Positions 20,903 to 50,193 of a stretch of 64,000 nt of DNA are shown piece by piece; position 1 is the first letter of the stretch, and the number at the start of each line of letters is the position of its first letter. The notes under the pieces were generated by a model. That model searched no databases. It was not told the origin of the DNA and saw only the letters and a program-made list of their open reading frames with translations. A program made the translations under genes and the position numbers. This DNA is from Chitinophagales bacterium (lineage in GTDB: Bacteria; Bacteroidota; Bacteroidia; Chitinophagales; Chitinophagaceae): positions 1 to 64,000 of the forward strand of contig JAFLBL010000002.1 of the NCBI GenBank assembly GCA_017303855.1, written 5' to 3'.

Positions 20903-22171
20903 TTATTTAGGGTTAGGATTTCGTTTTTTCTTCTTTTTCTTTAGCAGTTCGGCAGGAACCCGGTTCAGGTACTTTTCATGCTCCAACAGGTCTTTGAGCA
21001 AGCCGTCTTGGGTGGGGTGAGTCTCTGCCGCCTGAGATGGTTCTCGGTCATTCCTGAAATCCTTTGACTGGGTGGTTTCAGAGGCGGTTTTTGGGGCTTT
21101 TGTCAAGCCCTGTTGACCCGAATCCAACGAAGCCCTGATACCTGCGATACTGTAAAGCTTGCCTATATCACTGCCATTAAAGACGGCCTTCGTACGGAAG
21201 TCAATAAAAGTAATCCCGAAAACCAGCCCCTGCTTATTCTCCCTCAGAATTACATGCACCCCTTCTTTTTTCAGTGCATTGATCAAGGCTTCCAGGCTGC
21301 CCGGAGATTTTGCCATCACCCAGTCAATACTGGTCTTCAACCTTTTTTTGTCAGGCTGCCGGAGGTTCTCATTTTCCTTGAATTTTTTCTCCAGATTTTT
21401 CAGGGTAGGTTTGCTGTAGATCAGGCTGGCTTTGATGGGTACCCCGACCTTATTGCCCTCTCCGTCCAGCAACCGGTAGAAAAGCCCACCGGATTTATAA
21501 ACGATCCCTGTCTCCCGGCCCCGGTCGGCCTCCACGTTATACTGCCGGAGAATGACGTTCAGTTCTGCCAGCGAGGTATATTTAAAATGATTGATCACCG
21601 CATCCAGGACATTGGTGATCGAGCGGCAGGTCTCGGAATTGCCATAAAAAACTTTTTGAACATCCACGGGCCGGATGCCTGCAACCTCTGCTGCTTTTTT
21701 GCCCTGCGCCGGGATTAAACCAAAACTCTTTTCCAATTCTTTTCTTGCGTTCTCGGATTGGTTGCGGCCGATATTGTAAGTATCAATACGCTTGCCATCA
21801 GGCTGGATACTGGTAGTCAGGATATGGATATGGGGATGACCAGCGTCATGGTGCTGATAAACCAGGTAGGGTTGGGAGCCGAAGCCGATTTTTTCAATAT
21901 AAGCTCTTGCGATCCGGGTGAGTTTCTCCTGCGCAAGTTTCTCGGAAGGAGCGAAGTTTAAGGAGATATGGAGTGTATTGGATTTTTTTACCCGTTCATT
22001 TCTTGCAATCAGGTCCTGCATCCGTTCCATTTTCTGGAGGAAATTCAACTGGCTTGCATCCAGCAAATAGTTTCCTGCGAAAATGCAAACTGCTTTTTCC
22101 TTCTGGCATTTCTGCTCATTGTAATTTAATGCCCTTTGCAGACTATGCGGGCTGGTTATTCGGACGACCAT
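20903..22171 (-). CDS. mobB: Relaxase (MobB, MOBP-type of Bacteroidota)
   Basis: 422 residues. The relaxase domain is N-terminal: NTLHISLNF motif at 65-73 and the histidine triad HHDAGHPHIHI at 107-117 that holds the metal at the nicking site. It nicks one strand at oriT and stays attached to the 5' end during transfer. The C terminus is a Lys-rich tail (LLKKKKKKRNPNPK). It overlaps mobA by 16 bp. Confidence 0.9.
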   Translation of the reverse strand: MVVRITSPHSLQRALNYNEQKCQKEKAVCIFAGNYLLDASQLNFLQKMERMQDLIARNERVKKSNTLHISLNFAPSEKLAQEKLTRIARAYIEKIGFGSQPYLVYQHHDAGHPHIHILTTSIQPDGKRIDTYNIGRNQSENARKELEKSFGLIPAQGKKAAEVAGIRPVDVQKVFYGNSETCRSITNVLDAVINHFKYTSLAELNVILRQYNVEADRGRETGIVYKSGGLFYRLLDGEGNKVGVPIKASLIYSKPTLKNLEKKFKENENLRQPDKKRLKTSIDWVMAKSPGSLEALINALKKEGVHVILRENKQGLVFGITFIDFRTKAVFNGSDIGKLYSIAGIRASLDSGQQGLTKAPKTASETTQSKDFRNDREPSQAAETHPTQDGLLKDLLEHEKYLNRVPAELLKKKKKKRNPNPK

Positions 22172-22545: not shown

Positions 22546-22567
22546 GTTTCATTTTCACTTTTTTTCC

Positions 22568-22706
22568 GGCAAAAGACAAGCACTGTCTTTTGCCGCAATG
22601 TCCTTTCAAACTTCTTTTCCCATACTCCCGCCGACTCCGGAGGCATAGGGAGCAAGATGCAATTGTGCAACAATTGAACATCTTGCCGGTTGCAGACACA
22701 GCAACC
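22568..22706. other. Candidate origin of transfer (oriT)
   Basis: Three inverted repeats lie in the gap before mobA: GGCAAAAGACA / TGTCTTTTGCC (22568-22578, 22584-22594), GCAAGATG / CATCTTGC (22652-22659, 22679-22686, with CAATTG inside both arms), and GGTTGC / GCAACC (22688-22693, 22701-22706). Repeats beside a relaxase operon are the usual sign of oriT. The nick site cannot be placed by eye. Confidence 0.6.
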
Positions 22707-22831
22707 TGTGACCTTGTAAAGTTAATCAGTCCGTTCCCGATAATAAGCACATGGTCAAATTCTGATCAGGTGGAGTTGACTGACATAAAATAGCTTTGCC
22801 TTATTATTAATAATTCTAAAAATTGTGAAGT

Positions 22832-23116
22832 ATGAACAGTGTAGTAAACAAAGAAAAATCAAAAATTTTCGAGACCATTTTAACCAGTCCAGGGATGACA
22901 GAAAAATGCAAAGTAGTTCTGCAGTTAAGCCGTCAAAATGTTTTGCTCTTGACCCGTCTTATTGAGGTGGGATTACTGACAAAGGATTCTCCGATTCAGG
23001 ATGGAATTATTCTTGCTTTTCCAAAGGAAGCAACGGAGGAGTTTAAAGTAATACACGAGGAGATTTTGAGAAAGGCAGAACTGACTGAATTTTACGAACG
23101 GTTTAGGGCTCTGTAA
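22832..23116 (+). CDS. Small conserved-looking hypothetical protein
   Basis: 94 residues, helical and charged, no Cys motif or membrane helix (KSKIFETILTSPGMTEKCKV, then LSRQNVLLLTRLIEVGLL). Proteins of this kind are seen beside oriT on Bacteroidota elements, but I cannot name the family. It is the only rightward gene between oriT and the AraC gene. Confidence 0.6.
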   Translation: MNSVVNKEKSKIFETILTSPGMTEKCKVVLQLSRQNVLLLTRLIEVGLLTKDSPIQDGIILAFPKEATEEFKVIHEEILRKAELTEFYERFRAL

Positions 23117-23161
23117 TTTTTCAGAATCCTGGCAACGCGCTAAAGGAGTTCCTATGGCCGG

Positions 23162-26874: not shown

Positions 26875-26978
26875 CTAAAATAATAAAAATCAATTATATG
26901 CGTAACCCGTAAAGAACTTTTTTCATATCCTCAAATGAAAAAGTTGATTCCCCATTGGCAAACCATTATAAAAAGGGC

Positions 26979-27455
26979 TTACAGCAGCCCTTCATCTGCA
27001 AAGCTCAGATAGCTTTCACCAGATAGAATAATGTGATCCAACACTGTTATATCATGAAACTGTGCCGCATATTTGATTTTCTGGGTTAGTTCTTCGTCTG
27101 CCCTGGAAGGTTTGAGATTGCCGGAAGGATGGTTATGGCTGAGGACCAGGGAGCAGGAACCCAGTCGTAAGGCTGCAGCAAGTATGATCCGTGGATCAGC
27201 CACTGTACCGGTTATTCCGCCACTGGAGACCGTCATCAGTTGAAGCACTCTGTTAGACCGGTTCAGAAATAATACTTTGAACTCTTCCAAAAGCTCAATC
27301 TTTTCTTCGTTCCAGTAGTTTTTTAAAATGTCGTAACAGTCTTTAGAGGTCCTCATCAGTGGACGTTCTGATACTTTAACGGAGACTTTTCTTTTGTACA
27401 CCACATCGATTTCTGATACATTGTTCAGCATTTCCAGGCTTAATTTGTTTTCCAT
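26979..27455 (-). CDS. radC: RadC-like JAB/MPN-domain protein (short form)
   Basis: 158 residues from ATG 27455. A longer frame reaches 27551, but its extra N terminus is hydrophobic nonsense read through a structured element, so the later start (MENKLSLEMLNN) is preferred. Only the JAB domain remains: SSGGITGTVADPR, SHNHPSGNLKPSRAD with the metal His pair at 107/109; the helix-hairpin-helix half is missing. Short RadC proteins are typical of conjugative elements, often with ssb and antirestriction genes. It ends 105 bp before the 659-residue gene. Confidence 0.88.
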   Translation of the reverse strand: MENKLSLEMLNNVSEIDVVYKRKVSVKVSERPLMRTSKDCYDILKNYWNEEKIELLEEFKVLFLNRSNRVLQLMTVSSGGITGTVADPRIILAAALRLGSCSLVLSHNHPSGNLKPSRADEELTQKIKYAAQFHDITVLDHIILSGESYLSFADEGLL

Positions 27456-27496
27456 AATCCAGGTTTTAAATGAAAGAATGATTATGGAACAGTACC

Positions 27497-27603
27497 AGAC
27501 TTTGGGCAATAAAGTCCATGAGGCAAAGGAATAAATGAAAGCCTTGTGCAAGGGCCTTGTGTTTATGCCGGAAGCTCATGGACGCTTCAGCAGCCCAAAG
27601 TCT
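27497..27603. promoter_or_regulatory. Nested stem-loop element upstream of radC
   Basis: The outer stem AGACTTTGGGC / GCCCAAAGTCT is perfect over 11 bp (27497-27507, 27593-27603). The second stem TCCATGAG / CTCATGGA is perfect over 8 bp (27515-27522, 27575-27582), and an inner CCTTG / CAAGG hairpin lies near 27543-27554. The loops hold GGAATAAA (27528-27535) and GTTTATGCCG (27561-27570). The same two loop motifs in the same order occur in the element at 36010. It lies 42 bp before radC. Candidate single-strand promoter, leader RNA or both. Confidence 0.55.
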
Positions 27604-27630
27604 ATCTTAGTGCAATAAAAAATGAAATGA

Positions 27631-28770
27631 TTATACAAGCCCGTTCAGCTTATTCTGAACATACTCATGTACAATGCGTTCCTGTTCTAATCGCTTTTTA
27701 TTGGTGAGAAGAAACTGGTATAACTGTTGTTCATCAGCAGAAAGATGAGGTAATTTTTTTTCTTTTGAATTATTGACAACAGCGTATTGTTCAAATTTTC
27801 GGTAAGTGGTATTGTCCATAAGAAAAGCCCTGGCATCAGTATAAAATTTCCGGATCATATTCAACATTTCAAAGCCTGCTGCATCCAGGTCAAACCAACA
27901 ATACAGCCGGGTTTGTTTCAGCCAGGGTAATTGTTTACTAATATTACTTTTGAACCCTTCTCCGAATATCGCAATAGCATTTTTAACTTTGGGAAAAGTC
28001 AGGAAGCAAGTTTTATTTTCAATTATAAATACTCTCTCCGGTAACCATTTCAGCCATGAAGCATCATCCATCGAAAGACTGATTTCATCATACCCAAGAA
28101 TGGGTTTCAGGTCATCGTCCAAAATCCTGATCTGAGTAAATATGGCAGGCTTTTTCAGAAAATATCGTCCGGCAAAATCAGATTCAAGGGTATTGATATG
28201 TTCGGCGGGAAGAAACATGTCCAACATAATCTTTAGAATTCCGGTGTGACTCTCAATGAATTTTGAATGCACCTCGACTGGTATTTCTCGTATATAGAAG
28301 GGATGTGGCGGGGGATTAGAAACGAAGTAAGCACATACTTTTAATATATCATCCCATGCATTTGCGTACTGCAATAATATTCTGGTATTTTCGGCCGCCC
28401 AATTTTTCAAAATAGGGTAGTGGGCAATAATAGAATTGTAGGCAGCAGATATTTTTGAATAATCATTTAGTCTGCCTGTAAAAGCTAAAAAATCTTCAAA
28501 ACTCTCAAAATAAATTTTCGCAGGAATACTCTGTTTGCTGCCGTTAATAGTCTTTTCCTTCCAGTCAACCGAATAGCTTTTTGAGTTCACCGATTTGGAA
28601 TGCTGGTGAAGAGGTACTATATCATTTTTCCAGTCACTGAAATTGCTGCCGAGGATTTTCTTGTTACTGGGTATAACCCATGGGAAAACAGATTCCCCTT
28701 TTAACTGCAACGATGCAATCTTGAAAAAGGCTTTGTCAGTTTTGTTTAATAATTCTTTGGGAGTGATCAT
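27631..28770 (-). CDS. jetD: Wadjet JetD (DUF3322/DUF2220, TOPRIM nuclease)
   Basis: 379 residues. The N-terminal DUF3322-type part is followed by the DUF2220 TOPRIM fold: Glu251 (VFIIENKTCF), then AIAIFGEGF and the DLD motif at 294-296 (CWFDLDAAGF). In Wadjet, JetD cuts small closed-circular DNA after the JetABC motor has extruded a loop. It is the last gene of jetA-B-C-D and overlaps jetC by 4 bp. The length is normal and the catalytic residues are present. Confidence 0.9.
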   Translation of the reverse strand: MITPKELLNKTDKAFFKIASLQLKGESVFPWVIPSNKKILGSNFSDWKNDIVPLHQHSKSVNSKSYSVDWKEKTINGSKQSIPAKIYFESFEDFLAFTGRLNDYSKISAAYNSIIAHYPILKNWAAENTRILLQYANAWDDILKVCAYFVSNPPPHPFYIREIPVEVHSKFIESHTGILKIMLDMFLPAEHINTLESDFAGRYFLKKPAIFTQIRILDDDLKPILGYDEISLSMDDASWLKWLPERVFIIENKTCFLTFPKVKNAIAIFGEGFKSNISKQLPWLKQTRLYCWFDLDAAGFEMLNMIRKFYTDARAFLMDNTTYRKFEQYAVVNNSKEKKLPHLSADEQQLYQFLLTNKKRLEQERIVHEYVQNKLNGLV

Positions 28771-31700
28771 CCGGCGTTTTCGGCTAATTGTTTAAATTCT
28801 TCTTTTCGTTCGTTGTACTCTTCCATGGTTAGGTTATAGACAATGGAATGTTTTTTGTTTTTTATTTCCACAAAGTGTACTGCATGGATATAGGGTTCTG
28901 CAATATTGATTTTATCCAGTGGCGTTACTACCAGTATCTGGAGATTGAGTTGGTCACAGAATTCCATAAGGAATTGGCTTTTTTCAGGATCCAGTTTGCT
29001 AAATGCCTCATCCACGGTAATGAAGCGTAGGCTTTTATGCTGTTTACCCGGCTGAAAGATCCCAAATTGGTGAGCAATAGCAGCACCTAAAATAGCATAG
29101 GTAAACTGTGCTTTTTGTCCACCCGAATAACTGGCTGTGTTATCATGGTATTGGCCAGCCTTATTCTCAGCAAAAGAGTATTCCCTTGCATTAAAACTCA
29201 ACCAGTTCCTAATGTCTGTTACTTTTTTGCGCCATGTTTCTTCCTTTTGCAATTCTGTAATCATTTCTTTGATTTTCTGAAATACGTTTTCCCGGTATGC
29301 TTCATCTTTTTGTGTGGAAAATTCCAATACACTGGGAATGGTGGCACTCAGCTGCTCTCTGAAAAGTTTAATTTCCTGTTCACGAGTTGGTTTGCATTCG
29401 AGTTGCAAATAAGTATCAGGGTTTTTATTAAAAGTAATTTTGCGGAGCGGAACATTAAGTTCTTCGATGATTTCTTTGATCTTGTCCTCCTCATTAGTGA
29501 GCCAGGTGCGATAGTTGGTCAGTGCATCAAGCATACTCTTGTCCATATACTCCCGGAAGCGGCGTTTATGTTCCACAAGTCTTTGATTACGTATTGTTTT
29601 ATACAAATCTTCGAGTTCATCCAGACTAGTAAGCTGTGGGCTTAAATTCATCACATCGCCGCTCCATTCCGGAAATTCCTTTAAAATTGTTTCCTTAGGG
29701 TTTACAAATCTTGCAATGAATCCAATGATTTCTTCTTTTAGCTTAGTGATATTCTTAGTAGCGGTGATGATCTGAATTTTTAATAATTCATTTGTTTTGG
29801 ATTTCAGGTAAGATAGCTGTTCCAATGAAACCGGATTAAAATATTCGATTTGCTCTTTGCCCAGAAATGATTCAATCCGGGCGATGCCTTCAGTGGTCAA
29901 ATCGTCAAATTTAACCTGAAATTTCCGGAGGTTCATACGGTTAAGCTCATCCTCCAGTTTACTGAGCTTTCTTATATACTCTTCACTAGCGTTTCTCTTA
30001 AGTTCCAGTTCTTTTTCGAGTTCATCCAGTTGTTTGGAAACAGTTTTATATTGATCAGATGAACTTTGCAGCTCTACAATTTTTCGTTGCAACGAGTCGA
30101 TTTTGAGTGCATGTTGTTCCCAGTTCATTTCATGAAAGGATTTTATACCTGACAGGAGCGTGACTAAGGGTCGTTTCTCATCAAGTTCCTTAATCCTGGG
30201 GTTAATCTCCTGGATAAGCTGATGTAGCTTGTTGTGTTCAGATTCCAGGCTTTTTTTCTCCTGTATCAATAGTTGAACCGTTTCTTTGTTATCCCATCCT
30301 AAGGTGTATGTTAACTTGTTCCATTTATTGGGGCGGTCATCTTTTTCATGGCGGCTGATATTTCTGATCAAGCCATTTGAAGTAATGGCTTTTTGTGAAC
30401 CGTAAAAGTCATCCAGATCATCCGTACAATAGTAGTTATATCTTTCCAGGAGTTGTTTTTCAAGCCAGGATTTGTATTGCCCCGACTCTTTAAATTCTAA
30501 TTTATTGACAAGACAGTCATCCTCATTAGGCCAACGAACTATTGTATCACTGTTTTTTTTGTCGATCCGCTGATAAACTAGTTTGGCACCAAGATCATTA
30601 GCATGAACAAAATGATTAACCTGTTTTATAAACCGTTCCGGAACTACTAGCTGCAGAGAAAAATTGTGCAGGACTTTCTCAATGACATCTTCCCAGTGAT
30701 GGTCGTCTGCTTTCACTTTTATTAGTTCGCCAACAAACGGAAGTTCCTCCTCGCCAGTCTCCAGTAGCACAATCAGGCGTTCCCGGACAGCTATCAGTTC
30801 CGGCAAAATGCGGTTACGCCTACTTAGATAAGAATTGATATTCTCTTGAACTTTGTCTATCTGTATACTGATTCTTTCCTGATTTGTTTTATATCTGAAC
30901 CTTTCTTCACTCAATGAAGTGTAATCCTTTTCGATAGACAGGGTGAGGCGGTCAATATGAAGCAGATTCTCCCTGAATGAACCTTCAGTAATTGTCGTCT
31001 GAAGTCCTAAGGTAGTAGCTAGCCGGATATAATCCTTGGATATTTTTTTCTTGTCATTCAATTTTTCTGATTCTGTAGAAATATCCTTACTCAGCAGCTG
31101 CACCTGGTTATCAATATTCAGGGAAGCTTTCTGAGCGATCAGTAAGCTTCTCTCCGCTTCGTCTTGTTTGATAGCTTGACTGGTTTCTTCCTTCTTTTGC
31201 TCTAGCTGTATAATCTCTTTCTCAATACAACCTATATGAGAATCCAGCAGGTTAAACTCAATTTTATCGAGGAAGAATGGAAGTTGTTGCTCAATAAAAA
31301 CCAAGGCACTCATTTCTTTCTCAAGCACGTCCAGACGTTCTTTATTGGCAACAATGGGTTCCAGTAACTCGAGTTGTTTTTCATCTTTTTGAATTGCTTT
31401 ATGACTGATTAGCAAATCCGTATAATGATCATACAAGCTTTTGAACTGTTCTTCTGCTTCAGGCTCTTCAAGCATTTGTTGCCGGATAAATTGTGTCAGA
31501 TCTCCCAGCACTTTGATTCCCACCGTTTGATTGAATAATGAAAGCGCTTTTTCTTTTAGGCCAAACAGGTCACTGAAACGGGTTGCATAGTCTTTAAAGC
31601 TGTCAAATAAATCTGTTTTTGGGTATTGTTTTTTTAATTTCTTTTTCCACTCCCCTTTCATGTCAAATTGCCCTTTTCCAAAATTGTCAGCAATAGTTAA

Positions 31701-32165
31701 TTGGTAAGGCGCAACAATAAATACTTTTTTCAAACTGCCGCCGCTGAACCACCTCACCTGTACGAGTGTTACAGTATGAAGCGTTCCGGTATTCTGAAAA
31801 CTGGCCAGCAATACAGAGTAAGGATTATCTGATTTGTTTCTTAATTGCTCGGCCTTTGATTTTTCATCTGCGTCTGAATAGGTTTTTCCGTGAAAACCCC
31901 AGAAATATGAGTTCTCGTCCCTTTCTTTCTTTGTTTCGGCACCGGAGGACTGGTTGTAGAATCGTTTGTTGGCAGGAACAAGAATTGTTAGCAAGGCATC
32001 AATCAACGTTGTTTTGCCACTACCGTTAGCTCCCGTCAGTAAAGAGGTTCTGCCGTTGGTAAGCAGTTTATATACCTTACCATGAAAGGTTCCCCAGTTA
32101 TATATTTCCATGGAGCGTAGCCTGTATCCGCTCTCAGCATTATTATTGTTGAACAGAGTTGACAT
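28767..32165 (-). CDS. jetC: Wadjet JetC (SMC-like MukB-type ATPase)
   Basis: 1132 residues. Walker A GANGSGKTT at 45-53, two long coiled-coil arms (about 290-480 and 650-830) around a hinge-like centre, then the ABC signature SYSGGQKAQ and Walker B with FITVDEAFSKLD near the C terminus. It is the motor of the condensin-like JetABC complex that reels in plasmid DNA. The start lies within the end of jetB (23-bp overlap). Intact by inspection. Confidence 0.93.
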   Translation of the reverse strand: MSTLFNNNNAESGYRLRSMEIYNWGTFHGKVYKLLTNGRTSLLTGANGSGKTTLIDALLTILVPANKRFYNQSSGAETKKERDENSYFWGFHGKTYSDADEKSKAEQLRNKSDNPYSVLLASFQNTGTLHTVTLVQVRWFSGGSLKKVFIVAPYQLTIADNFGKGQFDMKGEWKKKLKKQYPKTDLFDSFKDYATRFSDLFGLKEKALSLFNQTVGIKVLGDLTQFIRQQMLEEPEAEEQFKSLYDHYTDLLISHKAIQKDEKQLELLEPIVANKERLDVLEKEMSALVFIEQQLPFFLDKIEFNLLDSHIGCIEKEIIQLEQKKEETSQAIKQDEAERSLLIAQKASLNIDNQVQLLSKDISTESEKLNDKKKISKDYIRLATTLGLQTTITEGSFRENLLHIDRLTLSIEKDYTSLSEERFRYKTNQERISIQIDKVQENINSYLSRRNRILPELIAVRERLIVLLETGEEELPFVGELIKVKADDHHWEDVIEKVLHNFSLQLVVPERFIKQVNHFVHANDLGAKLVYQRIDKKNSDTIVRWPNEDDCLVNKLEFKESGQYKSWLEKQLLERYNYYCTDDLDDFYGSQKAITSNGLIRNISRHEKDDRPNKWNKLTYTLGWDNKETVQLLIQEKKSLESEHNKLHQLIQEINPRIKELDEKRPLVTLLSGIKSFHEMNWEQHALKIDSLQRKIVELQSSSDQYKTVSKQLDELEKELELKRNASEEYIRKLSKLEDELNRMNLRKFQVKFDDLTTEGIARIESFLGKEQIEYFNPVSLEQLSYLKSKTNELLKIQIITATKNITKLKEEIIGFIARFVNPKETILKEFPEWSGDVMNLSPQLTSLDELEDLYKTIRNQRLVEHKRRFREYMDKSMLDALTNYRTWLTNEEDKIKEIIEELNVPLRKITFNKNPDTYLQLECKPTREQEIKLFREQLSATIPSVLEFSTQKDEAYRENVFQKIKEMITELQKEETWRKKVTDIRNWLSFNAREYSFAENKAGQYHDNTASYSGGQKAQFTYAILGAAIAHQFGIFQPGKQHKSLRFITVDEAFSKLDPEKSQFLMEFCDQLNLQILVVTPLDKINIAEPYIHAVHFVEIKNKKHSIVYNLTMEEYNERKEEFKQLAENAG

Positions 32166-32745
32166 AGCCTTCTAACTTATGCTTGATTTCTTCGAGTTTA
32201 TCATTATTCACTAACGCTTTGATTATCCTTTTCACTTCATAACGGTTATTGTCTTTATTAACGGGATCTTCCCGGTTAAGTTTGAGTATTCCGATTGCTA
32301 TTAAGTTGTTAATAGGCCTGGACAGCTCTTTCCATAATTTACTTTTGTTTGTTTGTTCTTTATAGAACAACTCAATCCGCTCTTTTATATCCTTCTGGGT
32401 TGGCTTAAAAGATGTCCCTTCACTTTTAATATCAAATTCCTCCAGCATCTCCCGGAGCAGTACACAAAGTAATGTGGTCTCATAATTTAGGGTTTGTTTA
32501 CGCATAAGGCGTGGTAATGGGTTTTCATCGTGTTCGTCTGCTTCTGGTTGTATGACCCTGGCAAAACCGTCAACATCACTTATATTCAGGTCGAGCCCGA
32601 TTCTAGAGAAGTATTCATGAATTGGTGATTTCCATGCCTGTAAATCCCTCCAATGATTCTTATCTTCTGCATATACAGGCCCCTGTAGCAGTTTAATGAT
32701 GATATGGGCATAAGGCGCCCGGCTACTTTGCTGATCCATATTCAA
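32143..32745 (-). CDS. jetB: Wadjet JetB (DUF4194, MukE-like)
   Basis: 200 residues with the DUF4194 winged-helix pattern: a helical N terminus, ETTLLCVLLREMLEEFDIKS, then KDIKERIELFYKEQ and LNREDPVNKDNNRYEVKRI. It bridges the kleisin JetA and the motor JetC, as MukE does. It begins directly at the end of jetA and overlaps jetC, so the operon is tightly coupled. Confidence 0.9.
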   Translation of the reverse strand: MNMDQQSSRAPYAHIIIKLLQGPVYAEDKNHWRDLQAWKSPIHEYFSRIGLDLNISDVDGFARVIQPEADEHDENPLPRLMRKQTLNYETTLLCVLLREMLEEFDIKSEGTSFKPTQKDIKERIELFYKEQTNKSKLWKELSRPINNLIAIGILKLNREDPVNKDNNRYEVKRIIKALVNNDKLEEIKHKLEGYVNSVQQ

Positions 32746-34212
32746 TTATTTAACGGGTTTTGTATAAAGAATCATAGGTACATTCACTTTTCTTTTCCCG
32801 ATCCAAACAGCTTCAATTGTTTCCTCAAGTATGATATGATGCTCGTTGCTGCTGGCGATGGAAAAATAGCCTACAATCTCACTTAACCCATTTTCCAGAC
32901 CGTATTTCTCTATTATCTCCTTTAGTGTAACCTGTACCTTGTCAGTCAGCATCAAGTCAATATTTTTCTGCAGTTTCTTTTTGTCAATAGTGAACTGATC
33001 AAATAGCGATTTTAAGTCGACGTCGTCTGACAGGTCTCCCCCGACACCCTCGGGAAACAATGTATGCAGGAGATCCTCTTTACCGTCATACAATTCCCAG
33101 CGATCAATCAGGTTTATATCCGGCTCGTCCTCTAAAAGGAGAAAGGCTTCCTCTTTGATCCGGCTATCTGTTAAAGCAAATGCCATTTGTCTAATTTGAC
33201 CGATTAACTCCATCGCTCTTCTGCGATCCAGCAGATTTTTTTCTGAAAGGACCCTGCTGATTTTTTCGCTTAATTTTCTGTTGGAGTCAATAACTTTTTT
33301 GCCAGATGCGTGGAGATACCTTTTGAGATTCTTTAAAAAGCGGTCATTGTTAAAATCAATGCCACGTTCTTTTAAAAGCTGGTAAAGCTTTTCAGTTAAT
33401 TGTCCAAATTCCTGTTGCTTTTTTTCATCCATCAGGAACTCCCAGAATGCCTTAAAGCTTTTTCCCTGATCTTTACTTTCAATTTCATCAAGTGCATCTA
33501 AAGCAAACACCAGGAGTGATCCTTTTGCTATATCTTTTTCATTGTATTTACGCTGTACTTCTTTACGTATCTGTTCAAAATTCTGTTCAACCTCGGCAAA
33601 ATCGCTCAGTAGTTCCCGGGCCATTTTGTTTAGGTTATAGAATTCTTCTTTTATTTCTGTATCATCATAGGTTACTGGTTTTTTACCTTGTTGAATCAGG
33701 TTGATTTCATTTTCAATCTCCCATTTTTTATTTTCCAGTTCCTGTATCCGCAATTCAGAATTTTCTGTACTCTGCTCAATCATGCCCCTCAGCTTAAAGA
33801 AAATATCCCTGAACCGGCTGTTGGTTCCAATGTGATCAGGACGTTGCAGGTTTTCAATCCATTCAAAAACCTTGATCGTATCACTTGTCAGTTCATGAAG
33901 ATCTTCTCCTTCATCATCTGGATATTTTTGCAGGTACCCTGCATTACTCCATTTATCTATGTATTGGGAAGCTTTTTGTGAATAATCATCGAACAGTGTG
34001 GAAGCTTCCAGTTCTTCATCCTTCTCTTCATACTCCAAATCTTCCATATACCCTTCGAGTTTGTTCCTTAGTTCCGTATTGGTGATCGTAGTTATATGCG
34101 ATTCCCTGAAAACCTTATAAAAAAAGGAAAGCATAAAAGGCGCATTTTTGGCTCTAAGCAGTGCCAAAGGCCGGGCAGTTTTGAATTTTAAGGACAGGTC
34201 ATCAAAAGTCAT
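32746..34212 (-). CDS. jetA: Wadjet JetA (DUF3375, kleisin)
   Basis: 488 residues beginning FKTARPLALLRAKNAPFMLSF, the DUF3375 start, followed by a charged helical middle with coiled coil (about 150-260) and a C-terminal beta part. JetA is the MukF-like kleisin of type I Wadjet. It is the first gene of the leftward jetABCD operon. DUF3375, DUF4194, SMC and DUF3322/2220 in this order define type I Wadjet. Confidence 0.9.
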   Translation of the reverse strand: MTFDDLSLKFKTARPLALLRAKNAPFMLSFFYKVFRESHITTITNTELRNKLEGYMEDLEYEEKDEELEASTLFDDYSQKASQYIDKWSNAGYLQKYPDDEGEDLHELTSDTIKVFEWIENLQRPDHIGTNSRFRDIFFKLRGMIEQSTENSELRIQELENKKWEIENEINLIQQGKKPVTYDDTEIKEEFYNLNKMARELLSDFAEVEQNFEQIRKEVQRKYNEKDIAKGSLLVFALDALDEIESKDQGKSFKAFWEFLMDEKKQQEFGQLTEKLYQLLKERGIDFNNDRFLKNLKRYLHASGKKVIDSNRKLSEKISRVLSEKNLLDRRRAMELIGQIRQMAFALTDSRIKEEAFLLLEDEPDINLIDRWELYDGKEDLLHTLFPEGVGGDLSDDVDLKSLFDQFTIDKKKLQKNIDLMLTDKVQVTLKEIIEKYGLENGLSEIVGYFSIASSNEHHIILEETIEAVWIGKRKVNVPMILYTKPVK

Positions 34213-34333
34213 ACAGCCAATATAATATTTTTATTGCTGAACTCTGAATGTATGCTCATAATTAAATGTATATCAATGAGTATAACATGGTTTGAGGTAA
34301 CTAAAATGCAAGCTGCCCTGCCCAACTAATGAA

Positions 34334-34394
34334 CCCCGTAGATGTCGGGGTAGCTTTTTTGGCTTTAAAACAGGCAGCCCGTCACAGGGCTGCC
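34334..34394. terminator. Two hairpins between DUF932 and jetA
   Basis: GGCAGCCC / GGGCTGCC (34373-34380, 34387-34394) is followed on the minus strand by TGTTTT and can end the leftward DUF932 transcript. ACCCCG / CGGGGT (34333-34351), with T6 after it on the + strand, points the other way. The remaining gap to jetA is AT-rich. Confidence 0.55.
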
Positions 34395-34402
34395 ATTGTT
34401 GT

Positions 34403-35422
34403 TCAGTTCATATAATCCATACAGAGGTTAAAGGCTTTCTGCGTCCGCATTTGTGCCGTACCACCATATAAAAGGGATTTCAGCTTGCTTTCTTCGTCCC
34501 TATAGTTCCGGACATTCTGAAAATACCCTGTCACGGCATTATAAGCTCCAAATAAAGTGCCCTTAGTGGTCTCATTTTGCTGGGATGGGCTAGACTGAGC
34601 ATACTCATAAGCGGAATTACTGATATTGTTAAAGCAGGTGGAAAGTTCGTCCAGGCGTCCTGCCTGTATGTTTTCCAGTACTTCTTTGTTGGGAACCATG
34701 GCCAGTTGTATCAGCCGTTGGAGCTCCGGGTCTGTGATCCGGACTTTTGACCATTGGGTAAAGATTTCAGTAAGTTGATCGGTCAACCGGTTGGAAATTC
34801 CCATAACTATATGGGCCTGTTCAAGTCTTTCTTTCGCATTGGCCGTATGACGGATTTTAATGGCATTGCTGTGGTTCCGCAGGGCGGCATTCAGGGTATT
34901 ATTGCAAACAATCCGGATTGGCGTAAAAGCGGCAGTAATGCTTCCAAAACCATCATGTGAAGTGGTCAGGAACAGGTATTTTTCAATCAGGTCTTCCCGA
35001 CCCACTTTAATATAGCCAGGGAGTTTGGCGGTTATGAAGATTCGTTCCCCCTTGCCAAGGGCTCCGGCGGTTTCATACTGGATGCCTTCGCCACCAACAA
35101 TACTGTCAAAAAAGCTGAAAGCGTCCCGGTTCTGCACCACCTGGTAATCCTTTCCCACTACCCCCAGTACCTGAAGGGTATCGGTGCGGATCGTGGAAAA
35201 GTAATCAGGTACTTCCAGATCATTGCCTGCTCCTGGAAGGCCATCCGGGCGGGTGAAAAGAGGGGATTTCTCCACGGTGTAATCCAGTCCGGCAAAGCGA
35301 AGGGCTTCGGCGCTACCGGGGTAGTCCTGTACGATCTGCCCCAGTCCATGCCAGGGTTTTTCTTTCACTGAAAAGAAACTGTGTTGTCCTGTCTGTTCGT
35401 TAAAATTTAAATTATGTGCCAT
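34403..35422 (-). CDS. DUF932 protein (phage/plasmid-like, TIGR03299)
   Basis: 339 residues with the family hallmarks: an N-terminal HSFFSVKEKPWHGLGQIV, then DYQVVQNRDAFSFFD, TSHDGFGSITAAFTPIRIVCNNTL, and a C-terminal helical region. DUF932 proteins are frequent in leading regions of plasmids and conjugative elements; their molecular role is unknown, with anti-defence functions suspected. Same direction as ssb upstream (94 bp) and Wadjet downstream. Confidence 0.9.
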   Translation of the reverse strand: MAHNLNFNEQTGQHSFFSVKEKPWHGLGQIVQDYPGSAEALRFAGLDYTVEKSPLFTRPDGLPGAGNDLEVPDYFSTIRTDTLQVLGVVGKDYQVVQNRDAFSFFDSIVGGEGIQYETAGALGKGERIFITAKLPGYIKVGREDLIEKYLFLTTSHDGFGSITAAFTPIRIVCNNTLNAALRNHSNAIKIRHTANAKERLEQAHIVMGISNRLTDQLTEIFTQWSKVRITDPELQRLIQLAMVPNKEVLENIQAGRLDELSTCFNNISNSAYEYAQSSPSQQNETTKGTLFGAYNAVTGYFQNVRNYRDEESKLKSLLYGGTAQMRTQKAFNLCMDYMN

Positions 35423-35516
35423 ACTAGTTACCCAGCTTTAACTTCTATCCCGCAGGCGGTACTGCTGCGGTTTGGTTTAAAATGGGGGTTCAGCCAACGG
35501 GCCAAACCCCGGTAAA

Positions 35517-35900
35517 TTAAAATGGTAAATCTTCAGCGGTATTCCCTTCAGCAGGGACTGTAACCGGAGTGGAGATTGTCTTTTTTTCCGCCTTGCCTCC
35601 GTGAAACTTCACGGAACTGACAAAAAAATCAAGAGAACCTTTGGCCTCACCGCCGGCATCTTTCCACGCACTCACACTGATCCTGCCAGCCAGTTCCACC
35701 AGTGTTCCTTTCGTCAGAAAGGGGGCCAGTGCCTCCCGTTGCCAGCAGGAGCAGTTTACAAAAGTGATGAGCTGTTTCCACTGATCGGACCCTTTGGGTT
35801 TGTAACGGTCATTTAACGCAATGGAGAACCGTACGACTTTACGGCCATCGGTTAAGCTGATAACTTTTGCATCGGCAGTGATTCTTCCTGTTAATTCCAT
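35517..35900 (-). CDS. ssb: Single-stranded DNA-binding protein (conjugative type)
   Basis: 127 residues with an OB fold (MELTGRITADAKVISLTDGR, VVRFSIALND, GTLVELAGRISV) and a proper acidic partner-binding tail ending EDLPF. It differs from the SSB at 1164, which lacks such a tail. It would coat incoming T-strand DNA in a new host. A structured element lies 110 bp upstream (36010-36108). Confidence 0.9.
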   Translation of the reverse strand: MELTGRITADAKVISLTDGRKVVRFSIALNDRYKPKGSDQWKQLITFVNCSCWQREALAPFLTKGTLVELAGRISVSAWKDAGGEAKGSLDFFVSSVKFHGGKAEKKTISTPVTVPAEGNTAEDLPF

Positions 35901-36009
35901 AACAATTTTTTTAATGAATAAATATTATTAGTTTCTTTCCCCGGCAAGTCATTCTTTTAAAAGAAAACCGGAAAAAAGAAAGCAAGAGCCAAAGCGGGTG
36001 AAGCTCTGT

Positions 36010-36108
36010 GCCAAATGGAATGCGGAATAAAGGAAGGGTATTGGGGAGCGGGCAGTCCCGCCTGCGCCGAAAGCTGCGGCGGGCCGGGTTTATGCCGAAC
36101 CATTTGGC
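36010..36108. promoter_or_regulatory. Nested stem-loop element upstream of ssb
   Basis: GCCAAATGG (36010-36018) pairs with CCATTTGGC (36100-36108), and CCCGCC-T-GC (36057-36065) pairs with GCGGCGGG (36076-36083). GGAATAAA (36024-36031) and GTTTATGCCG (36088-36097) lie in the loops, in the same order and place as in the 27497 element, while the stems differ in sequence. Conserved loops with changed stems point to a selected structure. The whole gap 35901-36278 has no gene. Confidence 0.55.
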
Positions 36109-36278
36109 CCGTATAAGGAAGTTGGGAGACCGCTAACTTGCTTTCGCTTTTGCCGGTGCCCATTTAAAAGGAATTGTAACAAGTACAAAAGAGTGTAAAA
36201 GAGGCCCACTGATCCAGCCGATCAATGGAGCGTCGCAACAAACGATGCCCAAAGAATATGGGATAGTAAAAAAAAAAA

Positions 36279-36533
36279 TTAAGCGGCAGTTACACGCTGG
36301 TAAGATTCAGCAGATGAAAATCCGCTATCTGTAATTGTAATAAAAAGTTTACCCTGTGGCTGTATCCGGATATAGCCAGCCTCAGACAGGTTATGCAGAT
36401 CCTCCATAATTTCATCCCAGGGAGAAGGATGACGCGCAATAATCTCAGTGGGATAAATAACCCGCTGAAGTGGCTTATGATCCTCTTTGATAAACTGGTA
36501 TATAATATATAAGGTGAGTTCCTGACGATCCAT
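36279..36533 (-). CDS. Small hypothetical protein, possible winged helix
   Basis: 84 residues: MDRQELTLYIIYQFIKEDHK, then IIARHPSPWDEIMEDLHNLSEAGYIRIQPQGKLFITITDSG. The helix-helix-strand-turn-strand end resembles a small winged helix, with the wing at GKLFITITDSGF. No family recognised. It heads the leftward block ssb-DUF932, separated from ssb by the structured element. Confidence 0.5.
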   Translation of the reverse strand: MDRQELTLYIIYQFIKEDHKPLQRVIYPTEIIARHPSPWDEIMEDLHNLSEAGYIRIQPQGKLFITITDSGFSSAESYQRVTAA

Positions 36534-36934
36534 GCCCCAATATAAAGAAATATAATCCGGCTAAAACACGATGATTTTTCAACAGTCGTTAATAAAGGAT
36601 AAAGGGTTGATACTCCGGAAAGTTTGAAATTATCCGATCCGGATATTTCCGGGATTAATTAAAAGGAATACCGGGATGCAACAATTATTGGCAGTGTAAA
36701 AAAAACCCACTTGAAAGGAGGGAATGAAACGATAATGAAAAGCTAGTTCTATTTTTCTGTAAGATGTGTTTTAGAAAAGTCTGAATTGTAAAAAACAGGT
36801 ATGAATTCAGGCGATTATACTATGATAAATGTCAAACTAGAAGGAAAGGATTTAGTTTTTAGAAATATTTATTTCATTTTGGTTAACTTTTACCAATATC
36901 AATAGGCGAAATTCCAACCGAACATCGACTGTTT
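36534..36934. other. Intergenic region between divergent genes
   Basis: 400 bp, no gene seen. A small ATCCGGATATTTCCGGGAT hairpin at about 36639-36657 is the only clear symmetry. It should hold the promoter of the AraC-family gene and of the leftward 84-residue gene; no confident promoter match was found. Confidence 0.35.
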
Positions 36935-39127: not shown

Positions 39128-40303
39128 ATGTATCGCATTTCAGGTTATCAAGAGGAATTGGATCGGAATTTCCGTGCCGCTTACCTGATTGGTGGCTTTA
39201 TACAGCAAATACTTTCAGAAGAAGAGGAGGAAGAACTTGAGCAATGGATTCTGAAAAGTGAACGGAATATGCAAATATTCGAAGATCTTACTGACGAATC
39301 AATGGTGACTGAATTTATGCGCTGGTATCATGAACGTGATGTAGAAGCACGACTGGCAGAAGTAAAGCGTAAAATCAGTTTTAAAAAGGCGCGTAAATCA
39401 TTTTCATTTTTGAAAATTGCTGTTGCCGCAGTTATAATCGGCATTCTGATGTTTGCCGGTATATATTTTATATTCAATACGCCAAATACCACCGATTTGC
39501 CTGTTGCTGAAAAACGGAAAGACGGAGATATCATACCTGGTGGGAAAACGGCCACTCTGAAACTGGCTGATGGCAGTATAGTTGATTTAAAGAATGTAAA
39601 GGATTCAGTCATTAGCAGGCTGGTGAGCATTGAAAACGGTAATATAATTTATTCAGGTGCGGGAGCTGAGCCTGAAATGCATGAGCTGATCATTCCCAGG
39701 AAGGGATTTTATCAACTTGATTTACCAGACAAAACAAAAGTTTGGGTTAATGCTGAATCTTCTATTCGTTATCCTACGCGTTTTACCGGACCAGAGCGCA
39801 GGGTTTCTGTTACAGGTGAAACTTATTTTGAAGTGGCCAGGGATGCTGCTCATCCCTTTATAGTTTCTGTAGGGGACGTGGACATTCAGGCTATAGGAAC
39901 CGCCTTTAATATCAATGCTTATACCAATGAAGAGGGGATTAAAACAACACTGTCTGAAGGGAAAGTACGGATAAGCAGGGGGGGAAGAACTGAAAAACTG
40001 GAACCTGGTCAGCAACTGCTGATCAGTAAAGATGCCTGGTATGTAAAGGCGGTGGATGTTTTACCCTTTACGGCATGGACCAGGCAGCAATTTAAATTTA
40101 AAGGGAGCTCAATCGAGGAAGTGATGCGGATGGTGGAAAGATGGTATGATGCGCGGATTATTTATAAAGATAAAATTACCGATCATTTTACCGGAACAAT
40201 TGACCGGGGAGTGCCTGTATCCCTGCTACTAAGTATTCTTGAAGCCACCGGCAGGGTACATTTCAACGTTGTAGGAAATACGATTACAGTAAGTCTTAAA
40301 TAG
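39128..40303 (+). CDS. FecR-type anti-sigma factor
   Basis: 391 residues: cytoplasmic N-terminal part binding sigma, one membrane helix (LKIAVAAVIIGILMFAGIYF, about 95-115), FecR domain with LPDKTKVWVNAESSIRYPTR and VTGETYFEVARDAAHPF, then a C-terminal DUF4974 region (VEEVMRMVERWY type). It holds the sigma factor until the SusC transducer signals binding of its ligand. Directly between sigma and SusC, the classic order. Confidence 0.92.
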   Translation: MYRISGYQEELDRNFRAAYLIGGFIQQILSEEEEEELEQWILKSERNMQIFEDLTDESMVTEFMRWYHERDVEARLAEVKRKISFKKARKSFSFLKIAVAAVIIGILMFAGIYFIFNTPNTTDLPVAEKRKDGDIIPGGKTATLKLADGSIVDLKNVKDSVISRLVSIENGNIIYSGAGAEPEMHELIIPRKGFYQLDLPDKTKVWVNAESSIRYPTRFTGPERRVSVTGETYFEVARDAAHPFIVSVGDVDIQAIGTAFNINAYTNEEGIKTTLSEGKVRISRGGRTEKLEPGQQLLISKDAWYVKAVDVLPFTAWTRQQFKFKGSSIEEVMRMVERWYDARIIYKDKITDHFTGTIDRGVPVSLLLSILEATGRVHFNVVGNTITVSLK

Positions 40304-40317
40304 GGTACCATAAAAAA

Positions 40318-40343
40318 CCGGAAAGTGCTGTTACACTTCCCGG
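40318..40343 (+). terminator. Hairpin between fecR and susC
   Basis: CCGGAAAGTG (40318-40327) pairs with CACTTCCCGG (40334-40343) with a mismatch each side. No strong T tract follows, so it may shape the mRNA or partly stop transcription before susC. Confidence 0.35.
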
Positions 40344-40432
40344 CGAGGTCTGGGTCACCCAAGAATATATCGCGGAAACGACAATTGTTTAACCCAAACC
40401 ATCCCGGTGGTTAGCCGGGACATTACAAAGCT

Positions 40433-43400
40433 ATGCTTTTGAAATTAAATTTTGCCCGAAAACCGGCAAGACTACTGCTGTTGGTTTTCCTGCTTTTCTC
40501 CTATGACGGAGAAGCCCAGTCTTTCACGATTACTGCTAAAAATCTGAAGTTAGAGAAAGTCTTTTTACAGATAGAGCAACAAAGTGATTATAACTTTATT
40601 TATACGGAGGAGTTGCTGGCACAATCGGTCCCGGTCAGTTTTGTCGTCCGCAATATTTCCCTAGATTCTGTGCTCCGCCTTTGTTTTCAGGATCAGCCGC
40701 TCACATTTATTATCGAGCAAAAACATATTGTGGTGCGGAAGAAAGTTGTTGAATTCAAGGCGCCTGTAGTAAAAGAAATTAGCGGGAAAGTGGTAAATGA
40801 GCAAGGGGAAGCAGCTCCGGGTATCAGTATTACACTAAAACCCGGGAATCTGGTAACGATCAGTAACCAGGAGGGGATGTTCAGGTTCTCATCCGTTCCG
40901 TTAAGTACTGTTCTGATTGTTTCAGGTGCGGAAATTGAGACACAGGAAATTAACCCGGGATCAGACAACTATGCATTAATTGTGGTTCGGCCACGGATGA
41001 GTCTGTTAGACGAATCGTTTGTAATTGCCTATGGTAAATCCTCAAAGCGTATCTCAACGGGGACGGTAAGCAGTGTTAAGAGGGAAAAAATTGAAAAGCA
41101 GCCGGTATCCAATATACTTGCGGTAATGGCTGGCAGAGTCCCGGGGTTACAGGTTTTCCAGGTATCAGGCGCACCCGGTTCCAGTTTTAATCTGCAGTTA
41201 CGTGGCATCAACAGCCTGGCTAACGGAACTGATCCCCTGATAGTAATTGACGGAATTCCTTATCCTTCTCAATCACTGAACGGCGTAATAGGAGGGGGAG
41301 CAGGCACCTCTTCAAGCCCGCTGAATGGGCTAAATCCAGCGGATATAGAAAGTGTGGAAGTGCTGAAAGATGCGGATGCTACAGCTATTTACGGTTCAAG
41401 AGGTGCTAACGGAGTAATTCTGATCAGTACGGTAAAAGGTAAGGCTGGGAAAACGGCGGTCGATTTTTCGTTTTATACCGGAATCGGGGGTGTCAGCAAA
41501 AAAATGAATTTGTTGGGGACAAAGGATTATCTGCAGATGAGGCGTGAAGCATTTGCCAACGATGGGACCAATCCCACTACATCAAATGCACCAGATTTAC
41601 TACTGTGGGATTCAACAAGGCAAACAAACTGGCAGAATGTTTTTTTAGGGAATACTGCCCATTCGACCGATGCGAAGATTAATTTATCGGGAGGTTCTGA
41701 GCAGACAAACTTCCTGTTCGGCTTGGGGTATCACCGGGAAACAACTGTTTATCCGGGAAATTTCGGGGATAACCGGAAGACAATGAATCTGAATTTGTCT
41801 CATCGTTCAGTGAATAAAAGATTACTGTTTTCCTTTTCCTCCAATGCCGTATTTTATTCTAACCTTTTACCACAACAGGATCTTTACAGTTCCATCAACC
41901 TGGCTCCAAATTCACCTGTCCTGTATACAGCTTCCGGCGAGTTAAACTGGGAAAATGGCACCTGGTCAAATCCAATGGCCCGGACGCGGGCGACATTTAA
42001 AACTAAAAGCACCAATTTTATTACTCAGGTTACCGCCTCTTATGAGTTAATTCCAGGTTTGATGCTGAAATTCAGCGGAGGATATAACCGGCTGGAGAAT
42101 GAGGATCACGCTATCACTCCGAAAACAGCTTCAAATCCGGCTTCAAATCCTGTTACTTCCGCACAGTTTGGTACAAAAAGCATAACCACATTGATCGGTG
42201 AACCGTATATAGATTATAGCCGTAAAGTCAAGAATGCAAGGATTACATTTTTGCTGGGCTCAACTTTACAGAGAACGGATCAGTATTTTATTTATCAGCG
42301 GGGTACGGGATATAACTCTGACGAATTACTGGGCAGCCTGCAGTCGGCGGCTCAGGTATCAGTTTTGTCTGAAGGCGATATCCGCTACACATATGCTGGA
42401 GTATTCAGCCGGATAAAATATGACCTGGCGGGAAAATATCTTTTCAGTCTGACCCTCCGCCGTGATGGGTCAAGCCGGTATGGGGAGGAAAACAGGTATG
42501 CTGATTTTGGATCCGTCGGAGCGGGCTGGATATTCAGCAAAGAAAAATGGCTGAGAAATTCGAAAGTGCTGAGCTTCGGTAAAGTAAAGATTAGCGCAGG
42601 CGTAACAGGTAATGATCAGATTGGCGATTACAAATATCTTGAATTATATACGCCGTATACGAGTTCTTATTTGGGAAGTACTGTATATTATCCCGCACAG
42701 CTATATAATCCGATATATGGTTGGGAACGGGTAAATAAGCTGGAATTGGCTACGGATCTAGGATTTTTCAGCGATATGGTATTGGCAACATTTAGCTATT
42801 ACAGAAATAATACAAGTAACCAACTGGTTAACTATCCGCTTCCTGTTACGACAGGTTTTGGCAGTATAGTACAGAATATCCCGGCTACTATCCGAAATAC
42901 GGGGTTGGAAATGGAAATCAATGGTACAGTAATAAAGACTAAAAAACTGGCCTGGCAAATGGGTGTAAATATCACAATACCCAGAAATAAACTGGTTTCT
43001 TTTGAAAACCTAAGCAGTTCAAGTTATGCAAGCCGCTATGTAATCGGGCAGCCGTTGAATATTGTAAAGAGGTACGAGTATCTGGGTGTAGACCCCACAA
43101 CGGGGAATCACCAGTTTCGTGATTTTAACCAGGATGGGCAGCTTACAACAAGTGGTGACTGGCAGAAGATTATTTTCACCGGACAGCAGTTTTATGGAGG
43201 GTTTGAAAATACGCTTCGTTCAGGGCACTGGGAATTGAGTTTGTTGTTCCAATTTGCCCGTGTGCCTAACGCATCAAATTACCTGACTCTGTTTTCAAGA
43301 CCTGGCTTATTAATGAACCAACCTAAGTGGGTTATGAATCGTTGGCAAAAGGTGGGGGATATAACAGATGTGCAACGATTTGCAAATACTAGTGGCGGAT

Positions 43401-43657
43401 CCTCCACCGCATTTTCCAATTACAGGCTAAGTGATGCAGCTTATTCCGATGCATCCTATCTGCGTTGTAAGAATCTGTCCATTACGTACCGGTTTTCAGC
43501 ACAAAAAGAAAAAAGACTAAAAGGGGCTGAAATCTACCTCAGGGCAAATAACCTTTTTACAATAAGCCGGTATAAGGGTCTTGATCCGGAAACACTCACG
43601 CTGTTGATGCCTCCAATCAGGTTGGTAACCGCTGGCTTTAAAATGAACTTAAACTAA
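40433..43657 (+). CDS. SusC-type TonB-dependent transporter with STN domain
   Basis: 1074 residues. Signal peptide (LLLLVFLLFSYDGEAQ), STN signalling domain (residues 30-100, SFTITAKNLKLEKVFLQIEQ), CarboxypepD_reg-like domain (SGKVVNEQGEAAPGISITLK), TonB plug (ADIESVEVLKDADATAIYGS) and outer-membrane barrel to the end. The STN domain contacts FecR across the periplasm. Import substrate unknown; with SusD and a TlpA-like protein it may be a peptide or glycan. Confidence 0.95.
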   Translation: MLLKLNFARKPARLLLLVFLLFSYDGEAQSFTITAKNLKLEKVFLQIEQQSDYNFIYTEELLAQSVPVSFVVRNISLDSVLRLCFQDQPLTFIIEQKHIVVRKKVVEFKAPVVKEISGKVVNEQGEAAPGISITLKPGNLVTISNQEGMFRFSSVPLSTVLIVSGAEIETQEINPGSDNYALIVVRPRMSLLDESFVIAYGKSSKRISTGTVSSVKREKIEKQPVSNILAVMAGRVPGLQVFQVSGAPGSSFNLQLRGINSLANGTDPLIVIDGIPYPSQSLNGVIGGGAGTSSSPLNGLNPADIESVEVLKDADATAIYGSRGANGVILISTVKGKAGKTAVDFSFYTGIGGVSKKMNLLGTKDYLQMRREAFANDGTNPTTSNAPDLLLWDSTRQTNWQNVFLGNTAHSTDAKINLSGGSEQTNFLFGLGYHRETTVYPGNFGDNRKTMNLNLSHRSVNKRLLFSFSSNAVFYSNLLPQQDLYSSINLAPNSPVLYTASGELNWENGTWSNPMARTRATFKTKSTNFITQVTASYELIPGLMLKFSGGYNRLENEDHAITPKTASNPASNPVTSAQFGTKSITTLIGEPYIDYSRKVKNARITFLLGSTLQRTDQYFIYQRGTGYNSDELLGSLQSAAQVSVLSEGDIRYTYAGVFSRIKYDLAGKYLFSLTLRRDGSSRYGEENRYADFGSVGAGWIFSKEKWLRNSKVLSFGKVKISAGVTGNDQIGDYKYLELYTPYTSSYLGSTVYYPAQLYNPIYGWERVNKLELATDLGFFSDMVLATFSYYRNNTSNQLVNYPLPVTTGFGSIVQNIPATIRNTGLEMEINGTVIKTKKLAWQMGVNITIPRNKLVSFENLSSSSYASRYVIGQPLNIVKRYEYLGVDPTTGNHQFRDFNQDGQLTTSGDWQKIIFTGQQFYGGFENTLRSGHWELSLLFQFARVPNASNYLTLFSRPGLLMNQPKWVMNRWQKVGDITDVQRFANTSGGSSTAFSNYRLSDAAYSDASYLRCKNLSITYRFSAQKEKRLKGAEIYLRANNLFTISRYKGLDPETLTLLMPPIRLVTAGFKMNLN

Positions 43658-43661
43658 TTAT

Positions 43662-50192: not shown

Positions 50193-50193
50193 A

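Follow-up and report, generated by a model that had tools for sequence, protein, structure and literature searches.

Hairpin elements upstream of radC and ssb as candidate single-strand promoters in Bacteroidota

The window analysed here is a stretch of 64,000 nucleotides (nt) from a Chitinophagales bacterium of the family Chitinophagaceae (assembly GCA_017303855.1, contig JAFLBL010000002.1, positions 1 to 64,000), in which an integrative and conjugative element (ICE) carries two related hairpin-forming elements, A upstream of a radC-like gene and B upstream of ssb. Each is probably a single-strand-specific promoter of the kind exemplified by Frpo, one which offers RNA polymerase the promoter boxes read by the primary sigma factor of Bacteroidota when its strand is single and folded. 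If so, the protective genes of the ICE (radC, ssb and others) would be switched on during entry into a new cell.

A widespread family with a covarying, DNA-like fold

Both elements lie where the initial annotation had placed them, and inspection of the sequence verified that they share GGAATAAA and TTTATGCC in the same order while their flanking stems differ (Table 1). The layout comprises an outer helix, a sequence-variable inner stem (P1), a purine-rich internal loop and a conserved head, and the window has exactly two copies of GTTTATGCCG, with no mismatch between them. What had been described as conserved loops is indeed conserved, but GGAATAAA and TTTATGCC are not loops, as they form a helix with one A.G mismatch. 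Likewise, the ends first reported (27497-27603 and 36010-36108) capture the core but not the full extent of the hairpins, and miss a key feature, the -7 box described below, because it sits in their outer ends.

When 99 relatives were searched with the plain pattern GGAATAAA...TTTATGCC, about 25 true copies emerged; 16 of these, with element B of the window excluded, were used to build a covariance model (R1). R1 recovers the left-out element B (31.7 bits, E value 6e-4) and finds copies in 77 of the 246 genomes of the window's own family, with more than 150 further copies besides B, and in 27 of 395 genomes across the phylum. It is the existence of this family, and not the pair alone, that excludes chance. 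Named records with R1-confirmed copies belong to Ginsengibacter, Hydrotalea, Segetibacter, Sediminibacterium, Pedobacter, Mucilaginibacter, Sphingobacterium, Solitalea and Dyadobacter. Where non-Bacteroidota loci matching the plain pattern were scanned, none matched R1, and a consensus query of a plasmid collection gave no match. At gathering score, Rfam returned nothing at the elements in the window and in 19 loci (tRNAs only, in the loci), and at E values up to 1 no family at the elements in window positions 26900-36600. A match to the archaeal snoRNA sR44 inside jetD (28033-28095, minus strand; 27 bits against a gathering score of 45) was sub-threshold and judged to be due to chance. In loci L103, L108 and L119 the draft contigs terminate near the elements, suggesting that repeated copies break assemblies. 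A subclass has GGAATAAGTCCCGAAGGG in the head and a long extra hairpin before TTATGCC, so that the head loop appears freely extendable.

Among 133 distinct copies 96.6% of stem cells are paired, and 327 stem cells have changed on both sides, as against 96 in shuffles (none of 500 reaching the observed number); pairing was abolished when the arms were slid against each other. The head covaries as well (GG/CC to GC/GC, CG/CG, GA/TC or TG/CA), its A.G mismatch being nearly always retained. The covariance-model search yielded many copies with compensatory stem changes, so that the outcome which the initial annotation had named as refuting its reading, a lack of such copies, did not arise. Of about 1990 stem cells only 6 are G.T and 4 are A.C, the latter equivalent to G.U on the mRNA strand, and wobble pairs are all but missing in either sense. 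Such a pattern is uncommon in RNA and natural in DNA, and RNA folding shows no strand preference (z scores -2.3 and -2.7). In the window, A folds well as RNA on both strands (z -5.6 and -6.3, with 0 of 200 shuffles as good), while for B the values on the two strands are only -0.9 and +0.7 as RNA, and -2.3 and -1.2 as DNA.

Promoter boxes and their spacing on the folded strand

Primary promoters of Bacteroidota carry TTTG near -33 and TAnnTTTG at -7 (PMC7366714), the -7 element spanning -12 to -5 and having TAnnTTGY as a variant (SM5) in Flavobacterium psychrophilum (PMC9723704). In the sense of the downstream gene, TAnnTTTG was found on the gene side of only 1 of 127 elements and distal to 4 of 127 within 300 nt; control genes of the same loci have it within 200 nt in 33 of 169 cases. 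A loose TTGAC...TA...T pattern, of the -35 TTGACA / -10 TATAAT type, occurs in at most 4 of the 127 copies per region and strand. The genes behind the elements nearly all lack ordinary promoters, which a single-strand promoter would explain. TAnnTTTG is instead frequent on the element strand just beyond the end of the R1 model, in the outer part of the 3' arm, where it takes the form [TG]A[ACT]CTT[TCG]G. A tolerant motif score of at least 7 is reached by 66% of 134 copies, compared with 8% of shuffles, 0% of reverse complements and 2% of gene-sense 5' arms. Position 2 is A and position 5 is T in all 134 copies, and position 6 is T in 133; these fixed positions are the ones which sigma reads, and the "nn" is free in other families (TAACTTTG, TACCTTTG, TATCTTTG, TAAATTTG and TAATTTTG). 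A -33-like TTG or TTTG is present further inwards, TTG being kept in the P1 3' arm of 113 of the 134 copies despite changing pairs.

On the linear strand, the -33 and -7 boxes are for the most part separated by 23-55 nt, with medians of 20, 24, 31, 35, 39 and 53 nt over six classes; along the template arm of the DNA fold the class medians are 16 (four copies only), 21, 20, 22, 21 and 20.5 nt. The corresponding linear and template-arm values are 22 and about 19 nt for A, where the outer helix provides the spacer, and 27 and 18 nt for B. In the DNA folds the first base of the -7 box is usually where the outer helix stops, and the following bases are unpaired, with an unpaired fraction of about 0.75 at the second and third bases of the box and of about 0.15 before it. 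A helix abutting the -7 box combined with a template spacing of 19-23 nt is found in 53% on average of 52 sequence clusters, as compared with 2.5% when positions in these folds were picked at random (200 draws, highest value 10.6%). Read linearly, a promoter on the element strand points away from the gene. In the fold, the 3' arm takes the role of non-template strand and the 5' arm that of template, so that polymerase directed by boxes in the 3' arm would travel from the loop towards the base and on into the gene. The suggestion of the initial annotation that the pair is the Bacteroidota counterpart of Frpo/ssi hairpins thereby gains strong computational support, as only folding of the single strand gives the sigma boxes the right orientation and spacing, and the gene context agrees.

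In the mechanism that we propose, the transferred strand (T-strand; the plus strand here) would enter the recipient as single-stranded DNA, and some 140-170 nt upstream of radC or ssb would fold into a long imperfect hairpin. Its 3' arm would present a TTTG-like -33 box in P1 and a TAnnTTTG -7 box in a pre-melted bubble, separated by a spacer helix of about 19-21 nt along the 5' arm. RNA polymerase could then load, use the 5' arm as template, leave through the base of the hairpin and transcribe the gene before second-strand synthesis, with predicted starts at about 27485 (A) and 35981 (B). In duplex DNA the boxes would face away from the gene and mostly be mis-spaced, leaving it off. The head may serve to stabilise the fold, to keep single-strand-binding protein (SSB) off or to bind a factor, and the transcript might also prime second-strand synthesis, as is reported for that of Frpo.

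The initial annotation had alternatively considered a leader RNA family, in which the hairpin would act in the 5' untranslated region of radC or ssb as a riboswitch, an attenuator or a protein-binding site. Such a role would fit the position upstream of a gene in one orientation, the strong covariation and the terminator-like T-run that follows the hairpin in ssb copies, but it is at odds with the almost purely Watson-Crick pairing, free of G.U enrichment on either strand, with the equal folding of both strands and with the absence of Rfam matches. The gene-sense distal TAnnTTTG counts given above, which concern this motif type alone and leave read-through and other promoters aside, offer such a leader few promoters. 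As it would also leave the fold-set spacing unexplained, and as the conserved -7 box of the opposite strand would serve nothing in an mRNA leader, we consider this reading unlikely. Even less probable is an ordinary duplex promoter that makes an antisense or a divergent RNA and whose inverted repeats serve as protein operators. The strand and direction of TAnnTTTG would indeed transcribe away from the gene, but the linear spacing is too long in most copies, and a duplex operator has no need of the intramolecular covariation of P1 and P2 as a helix that keeps a fixed A.G mismatch; moreover, the distal genes of the window are on the opposite strand, and the RNA would be antisense to jetD (A) or to an open reading frame (ORF) of 84 amino acids (B).

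Gene context, transferred strand and islands

The Pfam assignments PF04002 and PF00436 agree with the placement of the elements before radC and ssb in the initial annotation, and both genes lie between element and relaxase, directed, as it had also claimed, at the origin of transfer (oriT), which is presumed to lie just upstream of the relaxase gene at about 22546-23161. Across the family, the downstream genes, searched for on that one side only, where a few copies have no clear gene, are read off the opposite strand wherever they could be assigned, the element strand being their template. They comprise 47 radC and about 20 ssb genes, together with DUF6876, DFYFWL-family, 77-amino-acid-family, GIY-YIG and other genes, and the distance from the end of the R1 model to the ATG is mostly 50-57 nt for the radC copies. 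A PF03432 relaxase lies within 50 kb of 70 elements; it is on the opposite strand in all 70 and in addition on the gene side in 66, although these are not 66 independent events, since most radC copies share one ancestral layout. Relaxases typically lie in the lagging region, and the defence genes of the leading region lie on the T-strand (PMC11541004). The element strand is therefore the predicted T-strand and, in the window, the plus strand is the predicted template of radC (A) and ssb (B).

The same context bears on the possibility that the elements are single-strand origins (sso/ssi) only, priming the second strand, with their proximity to genes incidental. Such origins typically have long imperfect hairpins with conserved unpaired motifs and make use of the host RNA polymerase, and Frpo itself reportedly makes both transcripts and primers, going by a 1997 title of Masai and Arai. 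Against this stand the several copies per element, their near-constant distance to the start codon and the loss of ordinary promoters at those genes, all of which point to gene expression, and an origin function alone is highly improbable. Recombination sites of the attC type or at cargo boundaries, an idea that arose from the Wadjet genes between A and B and from the copies in direct pairs, were rejected, as a gene lies at a fixed distance behind most copies. The Wadjet genes, situated between radC and DUF932/ssb, fall within what is presumed to be the leading region of the ICE. Elsewhere in the ICE are nutrient-uptake genes (FecR, a TonB-dependent receptor and SusD-like genes; 39128-45023, plus strand) and, at 48356-52599 (plus strand), an AbiEii-type toxin with a DUF6088 partner and, after these, a STAND NTPase (nSTAND3) that has a weak Mrr-like match, which are likely defence cargo.

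Element pairs about 600-760 nt apart also precede a DUF6876 or DFYFWL gene, several of them together with a 77-amino-acid gene, in small chromosomal islands that adjoin a gene of about 250 amino acids, and some of these genomes have no PF03432 relaxase. One island (L258) is located beside a tRNA-Val gene, where a search for direct repeats found no attachment-site pair. The islands may also use single-strand promoters. It is conceivable, though rather doubtful, that radC, ssb, DUF6876, the 77-amino-acid gene and other genes on ICEs and islands form a regulon which is silent as duplex and on only as folded single-stranded DNA, owing to a -33/-7 spacing that only the fold creates and to a pre-melted -7 box; the islands would then sense single-strand entry by any route, transformation included.

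Several points weigh against a single-strand promoter. With minimum-energy folding, 39% of copies, and nearly half of the clusters on average, lack the combination of abutting helix and spacing; of 38 out-of-family copies (37 measurable) only 30% have it, partly owing to the weakness of these matches and to automatically cut arms, the motif being present in most. A pattern search confined to a 40-nt range supplied the motif, and shuffles and random positions served as its controls. Many radC copies, including a large radC group, have a degenerate -33 box (CATG in A), and the linear spacer of the largest radC group, about 22 nt, might also work in duplex DNA, toward the wrong side. The identity of the T-strand follows from the relaxase position and not from a mapped nick, and the island copies, some in relaxase-free genomes, do not yet fit a story of conjugation only.

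Table 1. Elements A and B, neighbouring genes and family loci. Positions are those of the window unless a locus is named.
Feature	Position	Strand	Remarks
Element A, whole folded hairpin upstream of radC	~27481-27617	+	R1 match 27506-27590, 89.3 bits
A outer helix, 5' arm AGACTTTGGGC	27497-27507	+	Partner of GCCCAAAGTCT, 27593-27603
A P1, 5' arm GTCCATGAG	27514-27522	+	Partner 27575-27583; P1 pairs covary across the family
A conserved head	27528-27569	+	Helix GGAATAAA 27528-27535 / TTTATGCC 27562-27569; fixed A.G mismatch, variable loop
A GTTTATGCCG	27561-27570	+	
A P1, 3' arm CTCATGGAC	27575-27583	+	Inner stem, partner of 27514-27522
A -33 position	~27577-27580	+	CATG as degenerate TTTG; putative role
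A -7 box TATCTTAG	27603-27610	+	At hairpin base; first base paired, others unpaired
Element B, whole folded hairpin upstream of ssb	~35978-36145	+	R1 match 36001-36116, 31.7 bits
B P1, 5' arm GCCAAATGG	36010-36018	+	Partner of CCATTTGGC, 36100-36108
B conserved head	36024-36096	+	GGAATAAA 36024-36031 / TTTATGCC 36089-36096; larger GC-rich loop
B GTTTATGCCG	36088-36097	+	
B -33 box TTTG	36103-36106	+	Inside P1 3' arm; read from sequence, putative role
B outer helix, 3' arm CCGCT	36130-36134	+	Partner AGCGG, 35993-35997
B -7 box TAACTTGC	36134-36141	+	Fits TAnnTTGY; overlaps downstream helix 35978-35986/36137-36145
Relaxase (MobA/VirD2-like)	20903-22171	-	PF03432 3.2e-32; gene side of A and B
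radC-like JAB-domain gene, predicted target of A	26979-27455	-	PF04002 1.3e-36 (ORF 26979-27551); ATG at 27455
Wadjet-type cargo between A and B	27631-34212	-	JetD, SMC-like JetC, DUF4194/MksE-like, DUF3375
DUF932 gene 3' of ssb	34403-35422	-	PF06067 2e-71; same direction as ssb
ssb, predicted target of B	35517-35900	-	PF00436 8.1e-15
Island loci	L258 8847-12055; L259 9200-12000; L260 8900-10979		
R1 matches of the GGAATAAGTCCCGAAGGG-head subclass	L038 2196-2308; L052 740-854; L054 751-864; L057 602-715; L059 2223-2336		

Comparison with known systems

Single-strand promoters are known from proteobacterial plasmids. For the Bacteroidota, a major gut and soil phylum, the literature searched, with subscription literature outside its scope, contained no paper on a single-strand promoter and no answer to how conjugative elements express their anti-restriction and SSB genes before second-strand synthesis. 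The family described here is a defined, searchable element with testable parts, and flags genes of early entry, with a likely anti-defence role, throughout the phylum. Its principle, that the spacing and direction of promoter boxes exist only in the folded single strand, is an unusual one.

The radC RNA motif (RF01754), listed for Proteobacteria (PMC2864571), is likewise a structured motif upstream of radC; it had no match at E values up to 1 in window positions 26900-36600 and none at gathering score in the 19 loci. STAXI (RF01728) too is a structured motif, found close to ssb as well as to antirestriction and integrase genes, and its authors discussed a role of single-stranded DNA (PMC2864571), but it consists of tandem pseudoknots with UUCG loops and belongs to Enterobacteriales. 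It had no match at gathering score in the window or the 19 loci, nor at E values up to 1 in positions 26900-36600. RNA polymerase also recognises folded single-stranded DNA in the M13 complementary-strand origin, the hairpin promoters of phage N4 and the sso of rolling-circle plasmids; compared by description, these differ in polymerase or sigma factor, host and role.

The closest parallel is with the Frpo/ssi hairpins of F-like and IncI plasmids, in which a hairpin of the T-strand shows promoter boxes to the host RNA polymerase and genes are read off the T-strand toward oriT (PMC11541004, which makes no mention of Bacteroid-). As in those plasmids, the elements stand upstream of ssb and other leading-region genes, the folded single strand presents host promoter boxes, here those of Bacteroidota, in the correct direction and spacing, and the early genes would be read off the T-strand, here deduced from the relaxase position. 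Unlike Frpo/ssi, they use -33/-7 boxes instead of TTGACA/TATAAT, have a conserved distal head (GGAATAAA/TTTATGCC) with an A.G mismatch, vary the bulges of the non-template arm while the spacing along the template arm stays constant, and reside on ICEs of another phylum. A further characteristic of Frpo/ssi is that SSB stimulates their transcription as single-stranded DNA by the host RNA polymerase. The family would thus work like Frpo, and by its sequence and sigma boxes is not filed as a member of it.

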